From the IMG/VR virus record IMGVR_UViG_3300049846_000310, positions 1 through 27,296 of that record: DNA of 27,296 nt. One strand, 5' to 3'. How positions within the stretch are numbered: the first letter of the stretch is position 1; each line of letters opens with the position of its first letter. This stretch comes from a virus. The notes under the pieces are model-generated. The model saw only the letters and a list, made by a program, of their open reading frames with translations, was not told the origin of the DNA and did no database searches. Both the position numbers and the translations under genes were made by a program. Positions 8,031 to 27,178 of the stretch are shown in pieces.

Positions 8031-8162
8031 TGAATTGAGGAAGTGAGTAAGTCAGTTCCTCGGATCCGAGATTATTTGCGCGCTTGAAAAGTAAGCATTG
8101 TGTCGTCTATCCGACTGTCGTTTGCGGCTAAAGGGTATCCGACGTATCGGGCCTAAAGCCAA
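8031..8162 (-). other. non-coding leader between tRNA and major capsid gene
   Basis: No ORF with support is seen here. The stretch holds a 12-bp perfect palindrome CTCGGATCCGAG (8059-8070) and two direct copies of TATCCGAC (8108-8115 and 8136-8143, 28 bp apart). Either could be part of a phage RNAP or host promoter region for the capsid operon, but I cannot identify a promoter consensus with confidence. Confidence 0.4.
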
Positions 8163-8236
8163 TCCCTCCACCTGGATTTGAACCAGGGACCATACCCGTA
8201 TGAAAGGCGTGCTCTACCAGACTGAGCTATGGAGGT
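8163..8236 (-). tRNA. tRNA with CAU anticodon (Met, or Ile if C34 is lysidinylated)
   Basis: The minus strand folds into a full 74-nt cloverleaf. Acceptor is ACCTCCA/TGGAGGG, D-arm GCTC-AGTCTGGTA-GAGC, anticodon arm CGCCT-TTCATAC-GGGTA with anticodon CAT, a 5-nt variable loop, and T-arm CCTGG-TTCAAAT-CCAGG. U33 and A37 are present and no CCA is encoded. Two positions are imperfect: A1-G72 does not pair and C27-A43 does not pair. An unpaired 1-72 is a feature of bacterial initiator tRNA, but the three G-C pairs expected at 29-31/39-41 of an initiator are absent (CCT/GGG), so an elongator Met or Ile2 tRNA is more likely. It lies just upstream of the major capsid gene. Confidence 0.85.
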
Positions 8237-8241
8237 AAGAG

Positions 8242-16483: not shown

Positions 16484-16643
16484 GTTTCAAGCAGTTAGGA
16501 TGGAAGAAGAGGTGAAGGTATTTGCCAGCAGCCCTCGTATCTAGACGGAGTGCTTCTCCGCAGATATTTCCCTCACAAATACGACATACACGGTTTGAGT
16601 TTACTGCCTCATCAAGAGACATATTCAAGTATTTCTTGCTCAT
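16461..16643 (-). CDS. small Cys-rich zinc-finger-like protein
   Basis: A 60-aa protein with C20-x2-C23-x4-C28 (VCRICEGNICGEALRL) and later H48-P-N-C51. The layout C-x-x-C, a short strand, then H-P-x-C-L resembles half a LIM or treble-clef zinc-binding module. It lies directly upstream of nrdA, overlapping it by 23 bases and overlapping the MazG-like stop with ATGA, so it belongs to the nucleotide operon. It is not a glutaredoxin or thioredoxin: the CxxC is not in the usual fold context and the protein is too short. No function can be assigned. Confidence 0.7.
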   Translation of the reverse strand: MSKKYLNMSLDEAVNSNRVCRICEGNICGEALRLDTRAAGKYLHLFFHPNCLKHASTELT

Positions 16644-17032
16644 ACCAAATCCTCAAGGCTGGGTTCAAGGTAGTTGGGACCTTTCAAGATCTTCCCATCC
16701 TCACGGAGGATTGGCTTTCCATTAGAATCAAGCTTGGTTAGATTTGAAGCATGGACCCGTGAGTAGGCTTCTGTCAGATCCCAGCCGAATGCAGCAGCCA
16801 TCTGATAGCAGACATAGACCAGATCAGCCAGTTCCTTCAGGAGGTGTGCCTTGCGGGCGCGATGATCAGATTGATGGCCAACCCTCTCATCAAGATCATC
16901 GACAGCCTCCTTGACTTCCTTTGCTTCTTCAGAGATTAAGGAGAGCTGAAGACGGAGTGAATCCGTAGTCAAACCCTGAGGCAGGTCGAATAGGGTTCGG
17001 AATTCCTTCGCAGAGGCCATCAAGGGGTCCAT
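16640..17032 (-). CDS. MazG-like nucleotide pyrophosphohydrolase
   Basis: A 130-aa all-alpha NTP pyrophosphohydrolase-like protein. The Mg-binding signature EExxE is at 35-39 (LISEEAKEVKEAVDD) and ExxD at 67-70 (LLKELADLVYVCYQMAAAFG). The end has the usual KLDSNGKPILREDGK and KGPNYLEP segment. Such enzymes hydrolyse (d)NTPs to monophosphates; cyanophage MazG homologues were first proposed to lower (p)ppGpp, but dNTP preference is also reported. I prefer ATG 17032 because GAGGG lies 7 bases upstream and overlap with the preceding gene is smaller; an earlier in-frame ATG at 17104 would add 24 residues. Confidence 0.85.
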   Translation of the reverse strand: MDPLMASAKEFRTLFDLPQGLTTDSLRLQLSLISEEAKEVKEAVDDLDERVGHQSDHRARKAHLLKELADLVYVCYQMAAAFGWDLTEAYSRVHASNLTKLDSNGKPILREDGKILKGPNYLEPSLEDLV

Positions 17033-17267
17033 CGACTGGCCCTCGAAAAAGAATCGATCGATCTGTGCTGCTTTCTGATGAGCGGACTGCATGTTCAAGT
17101 TCATTTTCTAGGTAGTGGATGGCCTTCTTGAGATCTTCAACCTTGCTGCCTTTCTTACCAGCACGGCAGATGTATTTGATGGCGTTGCCAAGGTGGAAGT
17201 TCAGTCGTTGATCACGAATGAAGTCACCTATGGCCCAATTGCCACCGTAGTGTTCAGGACTCTTCAT
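16929..17267 (-). CDS. DUF3310-like small protein (nucleotide kinase-associated type)
   Basis: A 112-aa ORF from ATG 17267. Residues 1-58 match the DUF3310 pattern strongly: SPEHYGG, then IGDFIRDQRLNFHLGNAIKY followed by ICRAGKKGSKVEDLKKAIHY and LENEL. In this family the H-Y, G-N-A-x-K-Y-x-x-R and K-x-x-E-D-L-x-K-A-x-x-Y-L positions are conserved; the function is not settled. The remaining ~50 residues overlap the MazG-like coding region in another frame and look unlike a family tail. Either the C-terminus is overprinted, or the ribosome or the sequence changes frame here. The start overlaps the NblA-like stop by 14 bases. Confidence 0.75.
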   Translation of the reverse strand: MKSPEHYGGNWAIGDFIRDQRLNFHLGNAIKYICRAGKKGSKVEDLKKAIHYLENELEHAVRSSESSTDRSILFRGPVDGPLDGLCEGIPNPIRPASGFDYGFTPSSALLNL

Positions 17268-18810: not shown

Positions 18811-18825
18811 GGTGGATTGATTAGT
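18811..18825 (-). repeat. 15-bp direct repeat, copy 2 (leader of the coiled-coil gene)
   Basis: GGTGGATTGATTAGT, identical to 18581-18595 and exactly 230 bp away. It includes the stop codon of the DNA polymerase gene and serves as the leader of the coiled-coil gene. Related leaders precede the SSB gene (AACCAATCCAC before ATG 23718). Confidence 0.9.
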
Positions 18826-20095
18826 GGACATCAGCCCAGGTGGGGCCGATCTTGGATTCAGCGGCAATGGGGAGGCGGATGTTATAGAAACGCCCAGCGG
18901 CTTCAGCAGAGGTGCAGAGGATGGACCCTAGGTTGTTGGAGTCCGCAGGATCGCACTCAAACTGCAATTCATCGTGGACGAATGCAAGTTGGTGGCCGGT
19001 TACCCCAAGATCCCCACTCATGTTGTTATGGGTGAAAACCATCCATCTCTTCGCCACCACCCCAGCGCTTGACTGGAGGAGATAGTTCAGAGCTTTGTGT
19101 TGGGAATCGACCTTGATCTGACGACCGTCGATTGCCTTGATCCAGCCCCTATCCTTGGCTGCAGCCTTGACACCCTTGACGAGGTTTTCCAAGCCGTCGA
19201 TAGCATCCATGTAGGCTTGACGAATTTCTGCCCCCTTGGCCTTAGCTTTAGCAGGAGGTAGTAGTGGGTCATAACTACGACCGATCTTCTCATCACCAGC
19301 CCCATAGAGGAATGCGTAGGTGACTGTTTTAACGAGCTTCCTGGATATGCCGATCTTGTCAGCATTCACCTGATGGATATCATCGTTGAGAAGGATGTCG
19401 GCATAGCGGCCATCGTCATAGGCAGCCAGGTAGTGGGCCAGCATCCGAAGCTCGATCCCACTCAGGTCTGCCCCCACCATGACCATCCCCTTACTGGCCT
19501 GGAATAGCCTCCTGAAGCGGAGGTCGCTGGGGACCTGGGCCAGGTTGGGGTTGCGGTGAGCGCAGCGGTGTGTGGCCGCTCCTACCTCACAGTGGTGATG
19601 GATTCGACCATCCCTGACCAGCCGAAGCCATCCGTTCTGGCCGTTGGATAGCATCCCAAGCTGCTTGGTAAGCTCTAGCATCCTGAAGAACTGGAGAGCC
19701 AGATCTGTGCCGTGGTCTTTGAGAGTGACCTCATCAACCTGGACCTTTCCTTTCTCCGTCACCTTTCTGGGCTTCCACCCATCAAACGTCTTCAGGATAT
19801 AAGCGATGTGATCCCTGCTGGTAGGATTGAAGTCCTTCAGCCTGGTCATCGCTGCACCCTTAACGTAGCCCTTGGTTTTGTTATCCTTTGCGGGAGTGAA
19901 AACCGGACCAGGAATAAAGGGGAATCGGCTGATGACTTCTTCCTGAGTGTCCAACAGTTCAGCACTCAATTCGGTATGTAGCTCTTGAGCTAGCCGTTCA
20001 TTGAATGCCCAACCGTAGATCTCCTGCTGCGTGAGTATCTCAGCTACCCGATGCTCTAAGGCAATCCAGGATAGGTCTTGCGGAAGCGTTGCCAT
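18821..20095 (-). CDS. family A DNA polymerase, polymerase domain (T7 gp5-like, split)
   Basis: A 424-aa protein holding thumb, fingers and palm. Motif A is GADLSGIELRML (catalytic D210). Motif B is RKLVKTVTYAFLYGAGDEKI with K256 and Y260 (the T7 Tyr526 position). Motif C is HDELQFE (D375). Also seen are the FNPTSRDH and THRCAHRNPNLAQVPS segments. The N-terminal IALEHRVAEILTQQEIYGWA is continuous with family members that carry the exonuclease in the same chain, but here that part is on a separate ORF overlapping by 40 bases in another frame. The region before FNPTSRDH is shorter than in T7, where the thioredoxin-binding loop lies, so that loop seems reduced. The ATG at 20095 lacks a clear Shine-Dalgarno sequence. 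Confidence 0.94.
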   Translation of the reverse strand: MATLPQDLSWIALEHRVAEILTQQEIYGWAFNERLAQELHTELSAELLDTQEEVISRFPFIPGPVFTPAKDNKTKGYVKGAAMTRLKDFNPTSRDHIAYILKTFDGWKPRKVTEKGKVQVDEVTLKDHGTDLALQFFRMLELTKQLGMLSNGQNGWLRLVRDGRIHHHCEVGAATHRCAHRNPNLAQVPSDLRFRRLFQASKGMVMVGADLSGIELRMLAHYLAAYDDGRYADILLNDDIHQVNADKIGISRKLVKTVTYAFLYGAGDEKIGRSYDPLLPPAKAKAKGAEIRQAYMDAIDGLENLVKGVKAAAKDRGWIKAIDGRQIKVDSQHKALNYLLQSSAGVVAKRWMVFTHNNMSGDLGVTGHQLAFVHDELQFECDPADSNNLGSILCTSAEAAGRFYNIRLPIAAESKIGPTWADVH

Positions 20096-20574
20096 AAGCT
20101 CAAGGTAACGTGGACATCTTGGATGTTGTAGTCCTCCATTTCAGGTGACCATTCCTTCCAGTCGGTGGTTTTGCCAAAGTCATCTTTCTTGATCCCCAGG
20201 CGATAACCCCACGCCTCTAGAGAGTGCCGGCCATAGAGCTTCGGGGGCATACCCCTTGGCTTTGTTGCAGAGTCCTTCTCCAGGAGGTTGGGAAATTTCA
20301 GCCTTGACAGAAGCAGAGTATCGAGGCCCCTACCATCAACGTTGAACCATGGGTAGAACTTCCTGATTACAGGAATGTCGTAGTTGATGATGTTGTGGCC
20401 AATCACCCACTCAGCAGAGTCGAGGAGACTGACAGCAGTAGAGATAGGATGGCGAGAACCCTGATCATTGAAGACCAGAGTTTCATCAGTATCGAGGTCG
20501 TGGAGAGTAACACAGTGGATGGTGGATGTGTCGTGATAGAGGCCGTCAGTTTCGATGTCGAAGATGAGCTTCAT
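20056..20574 (-). CDS. DNA polymerase 3'-5' exonuclease domain (split gene)
   Basis: A 172-aa DnaQ-fold exonuclease that aligns with the N-terminus of T7 gp5. Exo I is KLIFDIETDGLYHDTSTIHC, Exo II GHNIINYDIPVI, and Exo III the DYNIQDVHVTLSLWQRF region, giving the DEDDh/y-type acidic residues D5, E7, D78 and D156. It should proofread the separately encoded polymerase, presumably in a complex. ATG 20574 is chosen because it overlaps the upstream stop (ATGA) and starts exactly at the conserved fold; an earlier in-frame start would add 13 unrelated residues. It ends at a TAG 40 bases inside the polymerase ORF. Confidence 0.92.
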   Translation of the reverse strand: MKLIFDIETDGLYHDTSTIHCVTLHDLDTDETLVFNDQGSRHPISTAVSLLDSAEWVIGHNIINYDIPVIRKFYPWFNVDGRGLDTLLLSRLKFPNLLEKDSATKPRGMPPKLYGRHSLEAWGYRLGIKKDDFGKTTDWKEWSPEMEDYNIQDVHVTLSLWQRFRKTYPGLP

Positions 20575-20975
20575 GTAGTCACAACTGGGGCGATTGAGAC
20601 AAGCCACTCCCATACCGCGAGACGGTCAGTTTTATTAAATGGTTTGAGGTACGCAGGAGTGGTTGGGAGTTTCAGTTGATCTGCTGCCCATTTCCATTGA
20701 GAGTACCTAGGCTCATCCAGCACAACTGCATTGAAGGGAATACCCCCTACTATGATTTTGTAGGACTCACCTTCAAAATACTCAGATTCCTTCCAGTCAA
20801 AACCTATGAGTAGATTTGTGAAGTCATTCTTTCTGACGATGAAGTCAACATCATTCGCCCTTATTGGGGAACTACTTGTAACCAGAGACCCAACAAGTTC
20901 AAAGTCGAAGTTTGACCCAAAGTTATGCTTGATGAGCAGGCTGGCGAGTACCGGGGTAATTTCAACGAGAGCCAT
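20571..20975 (-). CDS. small nucleotidyltransferase-fold-like protein
   Basis: A 134-aa protein. Residues 28-46 read VGSLVTSSSPIRANDVDFI, matching the pol-beta-type nucleotidyltransferase signature hG[GS]-x(9-13)-DhD (G29-S30, D42, D44). The usual third carboxylate on the next strand may be missing: the candidate strand reads GIPFNAVVLDEP with Asn82. The rest contains a basic/aromatic end (YSQWKWAADQLKLPTTPAYL, FNKTDRLAVWEW). Substrate and function are unknown; a minimal NTase, inactive homologue or adaptor are all possible. Base composition is markedly lower in G+C than its neighbours. It overlaps the helicase stop (TAATG) and the exonuclease start (ATGA). Confidence 0.66.
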   Translation of the reverse strand: MALVEITPVLASLLIKHNFGSNFDFELVGSLVTSSSPIRANDVDFIVRKNDFTNLLIGFDWKESEYFEGESYKIIVGGIPFNAVVLDEPRYSQWKWAADQLKLPTTPAYLKPFNKTDRLAVWEWLVSIAPVVTT

Positions 20976-23727: not shown

Positions 23728-26079
23728 TTAACAGAAAAAGTATGTAGAGTCGAGGACTTCTTCAGGGTTGAAGTCCCCAATGATGGGAGGAGGCTCAGTA
23801 GCCTCGATCTGTTGGGCGAACTCCGTCAGGTAATCCCCTTCAGCAAAGATCCTGCAGTAGGTATCTCTGAGGATGCAGTTGAGTACACCCATGTCGGTAG
23901 CTCTGCACAGAACACTGTCGTGGATGACGGTGAATGGAGCGTTGAAGTTTTGGAAGGCTAGATGTAGAAGACTTGCATCGAGAGAGTGGATCAGGTTTGG
24001 GGCAGTAGCTGCTTTGTGTCTGTTTTTGTCCACCTCATCAGTCTCTCCATCAGCAACAGTCAACTTGCAATTACCTAGTAGCTGCAGCTTGACTGTAACA
24101 ATGTTTGGCTTCATCAGCCTCTGTCGGACTACAAACTTTGAGGGGGTTGTCCACTCAAGTTCCTCCTTACCCTGCTTGAGAGCCTCCTTAACTTGATCGT
24201 TGATCCACTTCATAACGGCCATAGGGCCTGGGACGATCTTGTTCATGGAGGTAATCACTGCTTTGGTGATCTGCTTGAGATCCTCAGCCGTGAATTCGGC
24301 CCCTTTTTCCTTCAACGCATCACGGATGTACTGGCGGTTGCTGTACGGCTTTGCGTTGTAGGGGATGGTCATCACCGTCCGCTTCGTGACCTTGCGATCG
24401 AGCAGCGGAGCCAGACGCTCAGGTAGGAGAGTCCTTGCCTCCTCAGCGACAGCCTTGTAGGCATCCTGAGGTTGATCTCCAGGGAACACATTCACCAGCC
24501 GAGCAGTGCTCATGTCTCTGGCCAGGCCCGCAAGGATCTGAAGACCTGAGCAGGTTGCATCGACAGCCACAGGAAGCTGGGTGAACTGACGCTCACAGGT
24601 GATCACACAAGCGTGATACTCCTCGCAAGCTGCCAGGAACTGCCAGGGCTCCTCAGCGGCCTCCCAATCAGGTCGGTTGCCTAGTGGATCTGTTGCAACA
24701 CGACTAATGAGGCTATGGTTGACTGCCACCCACTCCTGCCGCTCCTGTAAAGTTGCCTTGTCCAGGCCATAAGTGGTTGCGACCTGGAAGGCCAGCCACT
24801 GCTCTGCCTCATCAGTCAGGAGAGAACCCTGAGCAAAGCGTAGAAGACTCTTGCCAAAGTCGGTATCCTGAGGAGTCAAGTAGGCGGGAATTGGGTAGCA
24901 TCTGCCTCTGTAATCGAAGGACCATGGGATGTAGAACTGGTCGCGGTTCTTGAACCGGCCAACTAGATCCATGGTCTTCCGGGTCCTGCAGGACAACCGG
25001 ACGATATGGGCATTCCTGTTCATCACCTCAGCAGCAGCCCTGCGGTAGCTGTGTCGAGCTTCCTCATTGGTCTCGATGTCCCACGGTTTGGGTGGAAGTG
25101 GGATCTCGTAGAACGGGATGAACTTGCCGACAGGGATCCTCTGCTCCATCAGGGTCTCTGCCACCTCGACCACGAACGGGTTGAGGGAATAGGCCACCTT
25201 CTGCAGGGTGTTGAGGAACTTGAGCGGCTCCTCCCCCAGCATACATGTCCTATCGTCAGACTCCTTGCGGCGCAAGCGGATCAGAGAGTGTCCACGCATC
25301 ACCTCGTTCAGTAAGTAGCCGCCATGTTGATCGTGACTCCAGTCCTTGGGAGGGATGATCATGGGCCAGGCAAGCGGAGCAAATAGCTCTGCATTCTGCA
25401 TGAGAGATTCTCGGATCTCCATGTAAGCTGGAGTCGGGATGAGGTACATCTCACGCCGCCTTCCGCTCAACCTAACATCTCTTTGAAACCACCCACTAAT
25501 ATCTAGGATGCAGTCCAATAACCAAACACCAAGCTTCACTCTTGCGACTCTGGGCCAGCTATCCCAACTGACATCTCGTCTGTTCATCATCAACTTCGTC
25601 ACCCGAAGCCGTTGATCTGTACCAGCAGAAGCGTGCCAATAGAACTTCTTGATGGTGCTGAGTATCTCAGGGTGGTTCTGTTCATAGAAGCGAATTTGGC
25701 ATTCCGCTTCGATGGCTGAGCCGATGGCTGCAGCTATGTGAACAACTCGCTTATCAGACTCATGGTGGGAGAATGCGTTGTCGAACAGCACTTTGAGGGC
25801 GATCAAGGCTGCAGATTCTGTATCAACCTGGGAAAGATACTTGTGAAGTTCCTTAAACACGGGACCATTTTTACCCTCCCGGATCATGAACGCAGTAGCC
25901 TCAATCATCTCCACCAAGGGAGGCATCAACTCTTGAATGGATGCCTTACCATAAACGGATGAAGAAGCGTAGGTTTTCTTCTCCAGCTTGCGTGTGTTGT
26001 CGCGAAGGTTCTCGATGCCGCATCGGATTGCCTCTCGTTCAAGATCGTATTGCTCATCGATTTGAGCAGGAGTTAACAT
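23728..26079 (-). CDS. single-subunit DNA-dependent RNA polymerase (T7 gp1-like)
   Basis: A 783-aa phage RNA polymerase, shorter than T7 RNAP (883 aa). The palm has VAVDATCSGLQILAGL with catalytic D507. The fingers have RKVTKRTVMTIPYNAK with K566 and Y574 (T7 K631/Y639). The second catalytic Asp is D721 in the IHDSVLCR block, preceded by TAPNLIHSLDASLLHLAF. It also has the FYIPWSFDYRGRCYPIPAYL region. It transcribes the class II and III genes from phage promoters. The C-terminus ends YFFC, in place of the T7 FAFA foot. The ATG at 26079 is preceded by AGCAATCACCA, without a Shine-Dalgarno sequence. Confidence 0.96.
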   Translation of the reverse strand: MLTPAQIDEQYDLEREAIRCGIENLRDNTRKLEKKTYASSSVYGKASIQELMPPLVEMIEATAFMIREGKNGPVFKELHKYLSQVDTESAALIALKVLFDNAFSHHESDKRVVHIAAAIGSAIEAECQIRFYEQNHPEILSTIKKFYWHASAGTDQRLRVTKLMMNRRDVSWDSWPRVARVKLGVWLLDCILDISGWFQRDVRLSGRRREMYLIPTPAYMEIRESLMQNAELFAPLAWPMIIPPKDWSHDQHGGYLLNEVMRGHSLIRLRRKESDDRTCMLGEEPLKFLNTLQKVAYSLNPFVVEVAETLMEQRIPVGKFIPFYEIPLPPKPWDIETNEEARHSYRRAAAEVMNRNAHIVRLSCRTRKTMDLVGRFKNRDQFYIPWSFDYRGRCYPIPAYLTPQDTDFGKSLLRFAQGSLLTDEAEQWLAFQVATTYGLDKATLQERQEWVAVNHSLISRVATDPLGNRPDWEAAEEPWQFLAACEEYHACVITCERQFTQLPVAVDATCSGLQILAGLARDMSTARLVNVFPGDQPQDAYKAVAEEARTLLPERLAPLLDRKVTKRTVMTIPYNAKPYSNRQYIRDALKEKGAEFTAEDLKQITKAVITSMNKIVPGPMAVMKWINDQVKEALKQGKEELEWTTPSKFVVRQRLMKPNIVTVKLQLLGNCKLTVADGETDEVDKNRHKAATAPNLIHSLDASLLHLAFQNFNAPFTVIHDSVLCRATDMGVLNCILRDTYCRIFAEGDYLTEFAQQIEATEPPPIIGDFNPEEVLDSTYFFC

Positions 26080-26164: not shown

Positions 26165-26199
26165 TGCAAAAGGAAAGCCGGGAGTTGAACCCCGGCCAT
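26165..26199 (-). other. stem-loop with T-rich tail downstream of the tRNA-Leu half (possible terminator)
   Basis: On the minus strand GCCGGG and CCCGGC form a perfect 6-bp stem with an 8-nt loop, extended by GGAA/TTCC, and followed by TTTT. It resembles a tRNA T-arm and its end resembles an intrinsic terminator. It could separate early transcripts from the RNAP leader. Confidence 0.4.
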
Positions 26200-26225: not shown

Positions 26226-26266
26226 GAACCTGAAACTAGCGCGTCTACCAATTCCGCCACATCCGC
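26226..26266 (-). other. 5' half of tRNA-Leu(CAG): tRNA fragment, putative attachment site
   Basis: The minus strand reads as a normal cyanobacterial-type tRNA-Leu from position 1 through the anticodon loop. The order is GCGGATG acceptor, TG, D-arm GCGGAATTGGTAGACGC, anticodon 5' strand CTAGT and loop TTCAGGT with anticodon CAG. Beyond position 38 the sequence fails to form the 3' anticodon stem (TCAAA in place of ACTAG), and no CATCCGC acceptor partner is found downstream, so it is not a functional tRNA gene. From memory, the podovirus P-SSP7 carries a roughly 42-bp host tRNA-Leu match near its integrase, proposed as attP. No integrase is visible in this window. Confidence 0.7.
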
Positions 26267-26350: not shown

Positions 26351-26536
26351 TTAGTCGGGGAGGTCGATGGCGTCCGTCTTGCTGGTGGACACATGGTCAG
26401 ACCACATGAGAGCCTCCTGCAGCTTGGTGATGGTCAGTGACACCTCACGGCTGCCAGGCAGGGCCTGTAGCGCTTGGATGCACCAGTTGAGGTTGGTATC
26501 GACCTGATTCAGGATGTAGCGGCTGGTAACCTTCAT
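26351..26536 (-). CDS. Acb2/Tad1 hairpin-family-like protein (possible cyclic-nucleotide sponge)
   Basis: A 61-aa protein with two predicted helices. The second contains PGSREVSLTITKLQEALMWS (residues 27-46). This closely follows the pattern S-R-E-x-S-L-A-x-T-K-L-E-E-A-x-M-W-x-N, which I associate with the short Acb2/Tad1 hairpin domain of phage proteins. Characterised Acb2 proteins form hexamers that sequester CBASS or Thoeris cyclic nucleotides and so block host immune signalling. The N-terminal part (RYILNQVDTNLNWCIQALQA) would be the first helix. It is an early-region gene, immediately before the tRNA-Leu half, and its ATG overlaps the AT-hook stop (TGATG). Function is inferred from family resemblance only. 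Confidence 0.6.
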   Translation of the reverse strand: MKVTSRYILNQVDTNLNWCIQALQALPGSREVSLTITKLQEALMWSDHVSTSKTDAIDLPD

Positions 26537-26919
26537 CAGGCAGCAACCAGCTTGGGACGACCCTTCGGACGACCCGTGGGGACGGACACCACAGCGGGGT
26601 AGGATTGGCCAGCATTGAGGCCCTTGACGACCGCCTTGGCCTCCTTGAGCACCTTGGCGGCTTGGCCACGCTCACCGCGAATTACCACGCCAGAGGAGCG
26701 GCGGCGCACCGAGAAGCCGGTAACGTCGGCCTCATAGTGGAAGACAGGGATTTGGAAGATGCGGCGATCATCCTCAGGGTAATCGGTGTCGATGTCGTCA
26801 ATCAGATGGCCTTTGGCGACGATCTTTTCGACCTGAGCGGTGAGCTTGGCTGCCTCCTTCTCGGAGAGTTTCTTGATCTGAGAAGCAGAGAGTTTTTCGG
26901 GAATAGTAAAAGATGCCAT
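26536..26919 (-). CDS. early AT-hook-containing DNA-binding protein
   Basis: A 127-aa basic protein from ATG 26919. The N-terminal ~35 residues are helical and Lys/Glu-rich (LSASQIKKLSEKEAAKLTAQ). The middle has a beta-like FQIPVFHYEADVTGFSVRRR and the C-terminus has a tandem AT-hook, TGRPKGRPKLVAA (residues 116-127). AT-hooks bind the minor groove of AT-rich DNA, so this may be a transcription or nucleoid-like regulator acting early in infection. The remainder has no family that I can name. An in-frame TTG further upstream (26955) adds 12 residues without support. The stop overlaps the next gene. Confidence 0.72.
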   Translation of the reverse strand: MASFTIPEKLSASQIKKLSEKEAAKLTAQVEKIVAKGHLIDDIDTDYPEDDRRIFQIPVFHYEADVTGFSVRRRSSGVVIRGERGQAAKVLKEAKAVVKGLNAGQSYPAVVSVPTGRPKGRPKLVAA

Positions 26920-27013: not shown

Positions 27014-27178
27014 TTAGTGGGCCTCCTCGGCCGCAGACTCGATCGCCTCATCAAAGGACAGGCGGCTGTCCTCGCTGAAGAAGCCAATGAACCAGTGGCC
27101 GCCGTTGCCGTACCAGTCGTCTGCGGTGTTCTGGTGCGCTCGCTTACGCAGCCAGTTGAGCTTCTCGGTGTCAGTCAT
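27014..27178 (-). CDS. small early protein of unknown function
   Basis: A 54-aa acidic protein: MTDTEKLNWLRKRAHQNTAD, then DWYGNGGHWFIGFFSEDSRL and SFDEAIESAAEEAH. Tryptophan and aromatic content is high in the centre (W-Y-G-N-G-G-H-W-F), flanked by helices. A textbook Shine-Dalgarno sequence, AGGAGG, lies 6 bases before ATG 27178, which is rare in this genome and points to strong early translation. It overlaps the stop of the partial upstream gene by 8 bases. A family is not recognised. Confidence 0.72.
   Translation of the reverse strand: MTDTEKLNWLRKRAHQNTADDWYGNGGHWFIGFFSEDSRLSFDEAIESAAEEAH

Follow-up and report, generated by a model that had tools for sequence, protein, structure and literature searches.

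The question raised by this locus is whether a short open reading frame lying just before the RNA polymerase gene of a T7-like phage encodes a sponge for the cyclic nucleotide signals of host immunity and, if so, which of these signals its product would bind. The window, i.e. the whole stretch of DNA analysed, comprises the 27,296 bases of an IMG/VR record classed as linear, and carries a cyanopodovirus gene set that includes a primase/helicase, DNA polymerase, exonuclease, MazG-like protein and ribonucleotide reductase, together with structural genes for portal and scaffold-type proteins, a major head protein and a tail protein. The DNA polymerase appears as two ORFs on the minus strand (18821-20975; exonuclease part at 20056-20613, polymerase part at 18821-20095), the MazG-like nucleotide pyrophosphohydrolase is encoded at 16640-17104 (minus strand), and a tRNA-Met (CAT) gene lies at 8162-8237 (minus strand) in the structural-gene region. 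Atd1, a MazG-like phage protein, has been described as a counter-defence protein. The T7-like cyanophage identity proposed in the first-pass annotation is borne out by an RNA polymerase ∼60% identical to its counterparts in Synechococcus podophages from marine and fresh waters and by a 39-bp match to cyanobacterial tRNA-Leu. This match, which is identical in many Synechococcus, Cyanobium and some Prochlorococcus tRNA-Leu genes, and which is found also in a few non-cyanobacterial records, is of the same kind as the tRNA-Leu attachment site of integrase-bearing T7-like cyanophages (PMC8776855). Picocyanobacteria of the family Cyanobiaceae are treated here as candidate hosts.

The predicted 61-aa protein with its characteristic sequence pattern was located at 26351-26536 on the minus strand, which the first-pass annotation had not specified and which also carries the rest of the gene block. 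The 61 codons encode MKVTSRYILNQVDTNLNWCIQALQALPGSREVSLTITKLQEALMWSDHVSTSKTDAIDLPD, of which residues 29-45 read SREVSLTITKLQEALMW. GC content at codon positions 1, 2 and 3 is 0.53, 0.39 and 0.81, respectively, a coding-type distribution, and stops are present in both other same-strand frames across the interval. The start codon shares one base with the stop codon of the upstream gene (TGATG). That gene (26536-26919, minus strand) encodes a 127-aa protein of unknown function with a basic GRPKGRPK tail; its earlier designation as an AT-hook gene was not upheld, since despite this terminus no Pfam AT-hook match was obtained at E ≤ 10. Its relatives in three other phages (L003, L083 and L084) likewise adjoin RNA polymerase. 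On the other side, the acb2-like gene is followed by attP (26228-26266, minus strand), where 39 bp reproduce exactly the first half of a picocyanobacterial tRNA-Leu(CAG), by a terminator-like hairpin with a T-rich tail (26176-26197, minus strand), and then by the gene for the T7-like single-subunit RNA polymerase (23728-26079, minus strand; 783 aa), an order that agrees with the position originally assigned to the 61-aa protein. One terminator-like hairpin was found against 1.3 expected by chance, and L003 and L083 have similar hairpins in the corresponding position. A promoter search found none, early expression of the acb2-like gene being suggested solely by its position, and an Rfam search of the right end of the record gave no match.

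L003 and L083 are the two closest phages (63% RNA polymerase identity), and both retain the upstream gene, attachment site, terminator and RNA polymerase, with no acb2 between the upstream gene and the site. The acb2-like gene is thus a gene-sized presence/absence insertion by comparison with these phages. Searches with PF24729, the Pfam Acb2/Tad1 hairpin profile, also gave no match among 49 records recruited by RNA polymerase or the upstream gene, many of which are fragments, and the lone match in the relatives' search (L001) is not an RNA polymerase relative; this places the acb2-like gene outside the core block. Given its absence from L003, L083 and the 49 searched records, the gene is therefore cargo, gained by its own lineage or lost by others. 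A DNA similarity search of the surrounding region against phage records returned no match. In site-bearing relatives the tRNA-Leu site is preceded by a tyrosine-recombinase-like integrase, recognised by its conserved C-terminal motif, whereas in the present record two small ORFs occupy the integrase slot, including one of 54 aa and no family (27014-27178, minus strand), and the 39-bp site is kept. The integrase has thus been lost or lies past the end of the record. Taken together, the coding composition, the TGATG overlap, the gene-sized insertion and the family profile scores given below confirm that the acb2-like ORF is a real gene as opposed to a chance ORF.

Membership of the Acb2/Tad1 hairpin family, as first proposed, is supported by several profile comparisons. 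The protein matches PF24729, its sole Pfam match, with 28.8 bits (E 1.4e-6) against a curated gathering cut-off of 27 bits; a genome search repeated the match at 27.8 bits. PHROG 15810 was matched also (E 4.5e-7), and the Tad2-like domain (PF11195) was absent from the protein in the Pfam search. Since direct protein searches with the 61-aa query gave weak or short matches only, alignments of relatives, drawn from IMG/VR, were needed. A profile of ten hairpin-only proteins (A6) matched Acb2 homolog 43 (PDB 9ptq, six chains in the one entry) with E 2.5e-11 and Tad1 with E 4.8e-5 and 5.6e-4, and gave a weak match to T4 Acb2/Vs.4 (E 5e-3). Comparison of A6 with a profile of full-length members bearing an F-x-Y-H-x-P motif (A5) gave a probability of 99.2%; these two sets do not overlap, an earlier comparison (A1 vs A4) having been discarded because of a common sequence.

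Within a larger alignment (A3), all 47 members match PF24729 at E ≤ 0.01. The hairpin-tip residues kept by the 61-aa protein are R30, E31, T37 and K38, of which R30 and E31 are retained in 47 of 47 aligned relatives, as is T37, which is aligned throughout. The search patterns included T-K-L-x-E-A-x-M-W, and hence the invariance of T, K, L and W is partly by construction; R and E lay outside the database patterns, and one set of relatives was filtered on the R, which was nevertheless seen in every locus listed without that filter. When 92 distinct sequences were sorted simply by motif, three groups emerged, comprising 53 with a WLGMDL-type continuation (from Bacteroidetes and crAss-like phages), 20 with the N-terminal F-x-Y-H-x-P motif, and 19, mostly short, with neither. 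The protein examined here is shorter than most relatives, but its invariant residues recur in further hairpin-only members, 50-61 aa long, of unrelated phages. Hairpin-only relatives of this size class, all from unrelated phages and other genome positions, include S-CRM01 gp70 (51 aa) and Gordonia phage Abscondus gp10 (52-55 aa), which share R-E...T-K-L-x-E-A...W with it, and A0A8S5M953 of Myoviridae sp. ct1Js5 (50 aa), its best viral fold match. The gp70 gene of the T4-like Synechococcus phage S-CRM01 (L085, 1965-2120), annotated as hypothetical, lies between gp59 and gp32 and encodes a second cyanophage hairpin-only Acb2-like protein, with a score of 19.9 bits, under the Pfam cut-off. In Tenacibaculum phage Gundel_1 (L090, 923-1494) an Acb2-like gene directly precedes a DUF2829 (Tad2 family) gene, and the two are possibly a counter-defence pair; co-occurrence of Tad2 with family members was seen in none of 50 records, and the Gundel_1 pair is anecdotal. 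A further locus (L306, 3603-4064) encodes a crAss001_48 domain (PF21825) fused to the Acb2/Tad1 hairpin and adjoins a terminase-like gene. Such fusions to, and neighbours among, phage proteins that are structural or have no assigned role indicate that not every family member need be a sponge.

The helical hairpin expected from the first-pass annotation was recovered by AlphaFold, which models residues 2-24 and 30-52 as helices packed in an antiparallel hairpin (core pLDDT 97-98) with no strands; neither of two findings on which that annotation had staked its proposal, profile similarity and a hairpin fold, was thus lacking. Foldseek placed CbTad1 in the top three PDB positions, including 8kbf with cADPR and cA3 bound, although with E-values of 0.6-1 these matches are not used as proof; the best viral fold matches include entries named as Acb2/Tad1 hairpin proteins, again with E-values that are not significant. 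By comparison, the model of a full-length F-x-Y-H-x-P member (L169) has one short and two long helices, which is the Acb2 protomer as described (PMC10419184); in the PDB this model is matched best by T4 Acb2 with cGAMP (probability 1.00, TM 0.69-0.72, E 0.07-0.1). The short N-terminal helix, with the dinucleotide-pocket tyrosine (Y8 in T4), is absent from both the sequence and the model of the 61-aa protein, and Y11 and R26, near-invariant in the full-length A5 group, also lie outside it.

These differences bear on the two ligand sites. Cyclic dinucleotides (CDN) are held by Acb2 between the N-terminal helix and loop and the C-terminal regions of two protomers, while the cyclic trinucleotide (CTN) site is at the trimer interface, apart from the CDN sites (PMC10419184, PMC12043709). 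The T4 Y8A substitution abolishes dinucleotide binding and function (PMC12657218, PMC12657230), and Y8 falls in the aligned segment that is missing here; T68, where T68M lowers binding (PMC12657230), aligns with the retained T37. The tip arginine is not universal in the family, since T4 Acb2 has Asp at the R30 position. The aligned residue in p26, R67, presumably contacts the trinucleotide. With residues at the T37 site kept and the segment at the Y8 site lost, a trinucleotide sponge is predicted, and the protein more likely favours cyclic trinucleotides over dinucleotides or gcADPR. Binding of 3'3'-cGAMP is doubtful, given the loss of the N-terminal helix and its cyclic-dinucleotide tyrosine.

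Signalling immunity in the candidate host family was examined across 300 genomes, of which two have a SMODS CD-NTase over cut-off, SMODS being the CD-NTase family covered by the search, and three have SAVED over cut-off. In Aphanothece cf. minutissima CCALA 015 (G104, locus L193), which also bears the exact 39-bp attachment site, the CD-NTase adjoins a SLATT effector; a second genome (G311) has a CD-NTase with an E1-E2 protein and an HNH-SAVED nuclease, and a third (G363; L303, 3575-8896) has hydrolase-SAVED, Cas10 and Cmr4-like genes together, i.e. a type III CRISPR-like locus with a SAVED effector. The two SMODS-containing CBASS operons have 2TM SLATT effectors. Signalling immunity is thus present but uncommon in Cyanobiaceae, at about 1-2% of the 300 genomes. 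None of the same 300 genomes has a PF24729 match over cut-off, and hence there is no sign of a host or prophage source for the acb2-like gene.

The reading that best fits these observations, and which is considered probable, is that the gene encodes a minimal hairpin-only sponge of the Acb2 type and was gained by this T7-like cyanophage as one cargo gene placed in its early block. The protein would be made early, its hairpins would drive assembly of an oligomer, as in Acb2 and Tad1, and the oligomer would trap cyclic oligonucleotides at its three-fold interface, cA3 and other cyclic trinucleotides being the likeliest. A CBASS effector of the host, or one of a type III CRISPR system that relies on that signal, would then stay inactive before phage replication, and by analogy with characterised sponges the protein probably disarms signal-based immunity of the host. 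Hairpin-only forms may, however, fail to assemble. Carriage could possibly come at a cost to the phage, since Acb2-type sponges can trigger the Panoptes defence (PMC12657218). A more tentative proposal, to which somewhat less than even weight is given, is that the 50-61 aa proteins form a functional 'mini-Acb2' subclass of trinucleotide-only sponges, with the three-fold site kept and the dinucleotide pocket lost, and that one of them is used by this T7-like cyanophage. If so, Acb2's two ligand sites would be separated in a natural protein, the sponge would rank among the smallest counter-defence proteins, and cA3-type signalling immunity would matter in picocyanobacteria, marking it as a selective force on phages of Synechococcus and Cyanobium, hosts where CBASS looks rare. 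Within the literature searched, no paper on anti-CBASS proteins of T7-like cyanophages was found.

Other explanations fit parts of the evidence. The protein could be a sponge for cyclic dinucleotides in which another residue, e.g. Y7, replaces the tyrosine, with the ligand spectrum of Acb2. Indeed, homolog 43, the best solved relative, has FDTH in place of the F-x-Y-H of other members, and so an N-terminal tyrosine is not universal in the family, while both SMODS CBASS operons use SLATT effectors of unknown ligand. The short helix present in the L169 model is nonetheless missing here, as are the positions of Y11 and R26, and the loss of function in T4 Y8A also makes this explanation unlikely. 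Rather improbable, too, is a small regulatory or structural adaptor that resembles Acb2 and Tad1 through a common fold only. Two-helix hairpins are common, the Foldseek E-values are not significant, and in crAss-like phages the hairpin adjoins a terminase-like gene and is fused to crAss001_48; against this, the tip residue pattern is retained across very divergent phages, sequence profiles, beyond fold, tie the protein to characterised sponges, and the Gundel_1 relative adjoins a Tad2 gene.

An anti-Thoeris protein of the Tad1 type, binding gcADPR, is very unlikely despite the Tad1 chains among the profile matches, since the match is confined to the C-terminal hairpin and loops from the part of Tad1 that is missing here contribute to the gcADPR pocket (PMC12043709). 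The Thoeris component of the first-pass annotation is thus unsupported, and gcADPR binding is not expected. The short length of the protein relative to most relatives might suggest a degenerate remnant without function, but with an intact frame, a coupled start, coding composition and the same invariant residues in hairpin-only members of unrelated phages, this is hardly credible.

The hairpin-only sponge reading concerns a family that is already known, and it is the anatomy of this member that is of interest. Acb2 proper is a homohexamer that has three pockets for CDN and two sites for CTN, and binds cyclic oligonucleotides to block CBASS. With Acb2, the anti-CBASS sponge of T4 (Vs.4) and Pseudomonas phage p26/PaMx33, the protein shares PF24729 and the antiparallel helical hairpin; T68 and K69 of T4 Acb2 correspond to T37 and K38, and chain residue R66 of p26 in 8ixz to R30. 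Conversely, Acb2 is 88-94 aa in length as opposed to 61 aa, the interhelix loop is shorter here, direct similarity to T4 Acb2 is weak, and the N-terminal helix with Y8 is found on the T4 side only. In Tad1, an anti-Thoeris and anti-CBASS protein (CbTad1 7uav and 8kbf; 8kbb), the tip S-R-E...T(K)...EAL-M-W aligns, but only the C-terminal hairpin is matched (about residues 86-117 of chains of 125-132), and the N-terminal beta domain, which forms the gcADPR/CDN pocket, has no counterpart in the acb2-like protein. Among solved structures, homolog 43 is closest in sequence to the hairpin-only group and likewise is without the N-terminal tyrosine, although at 76 aa it has an N-terminal extension, unlike the 61-aa protein.
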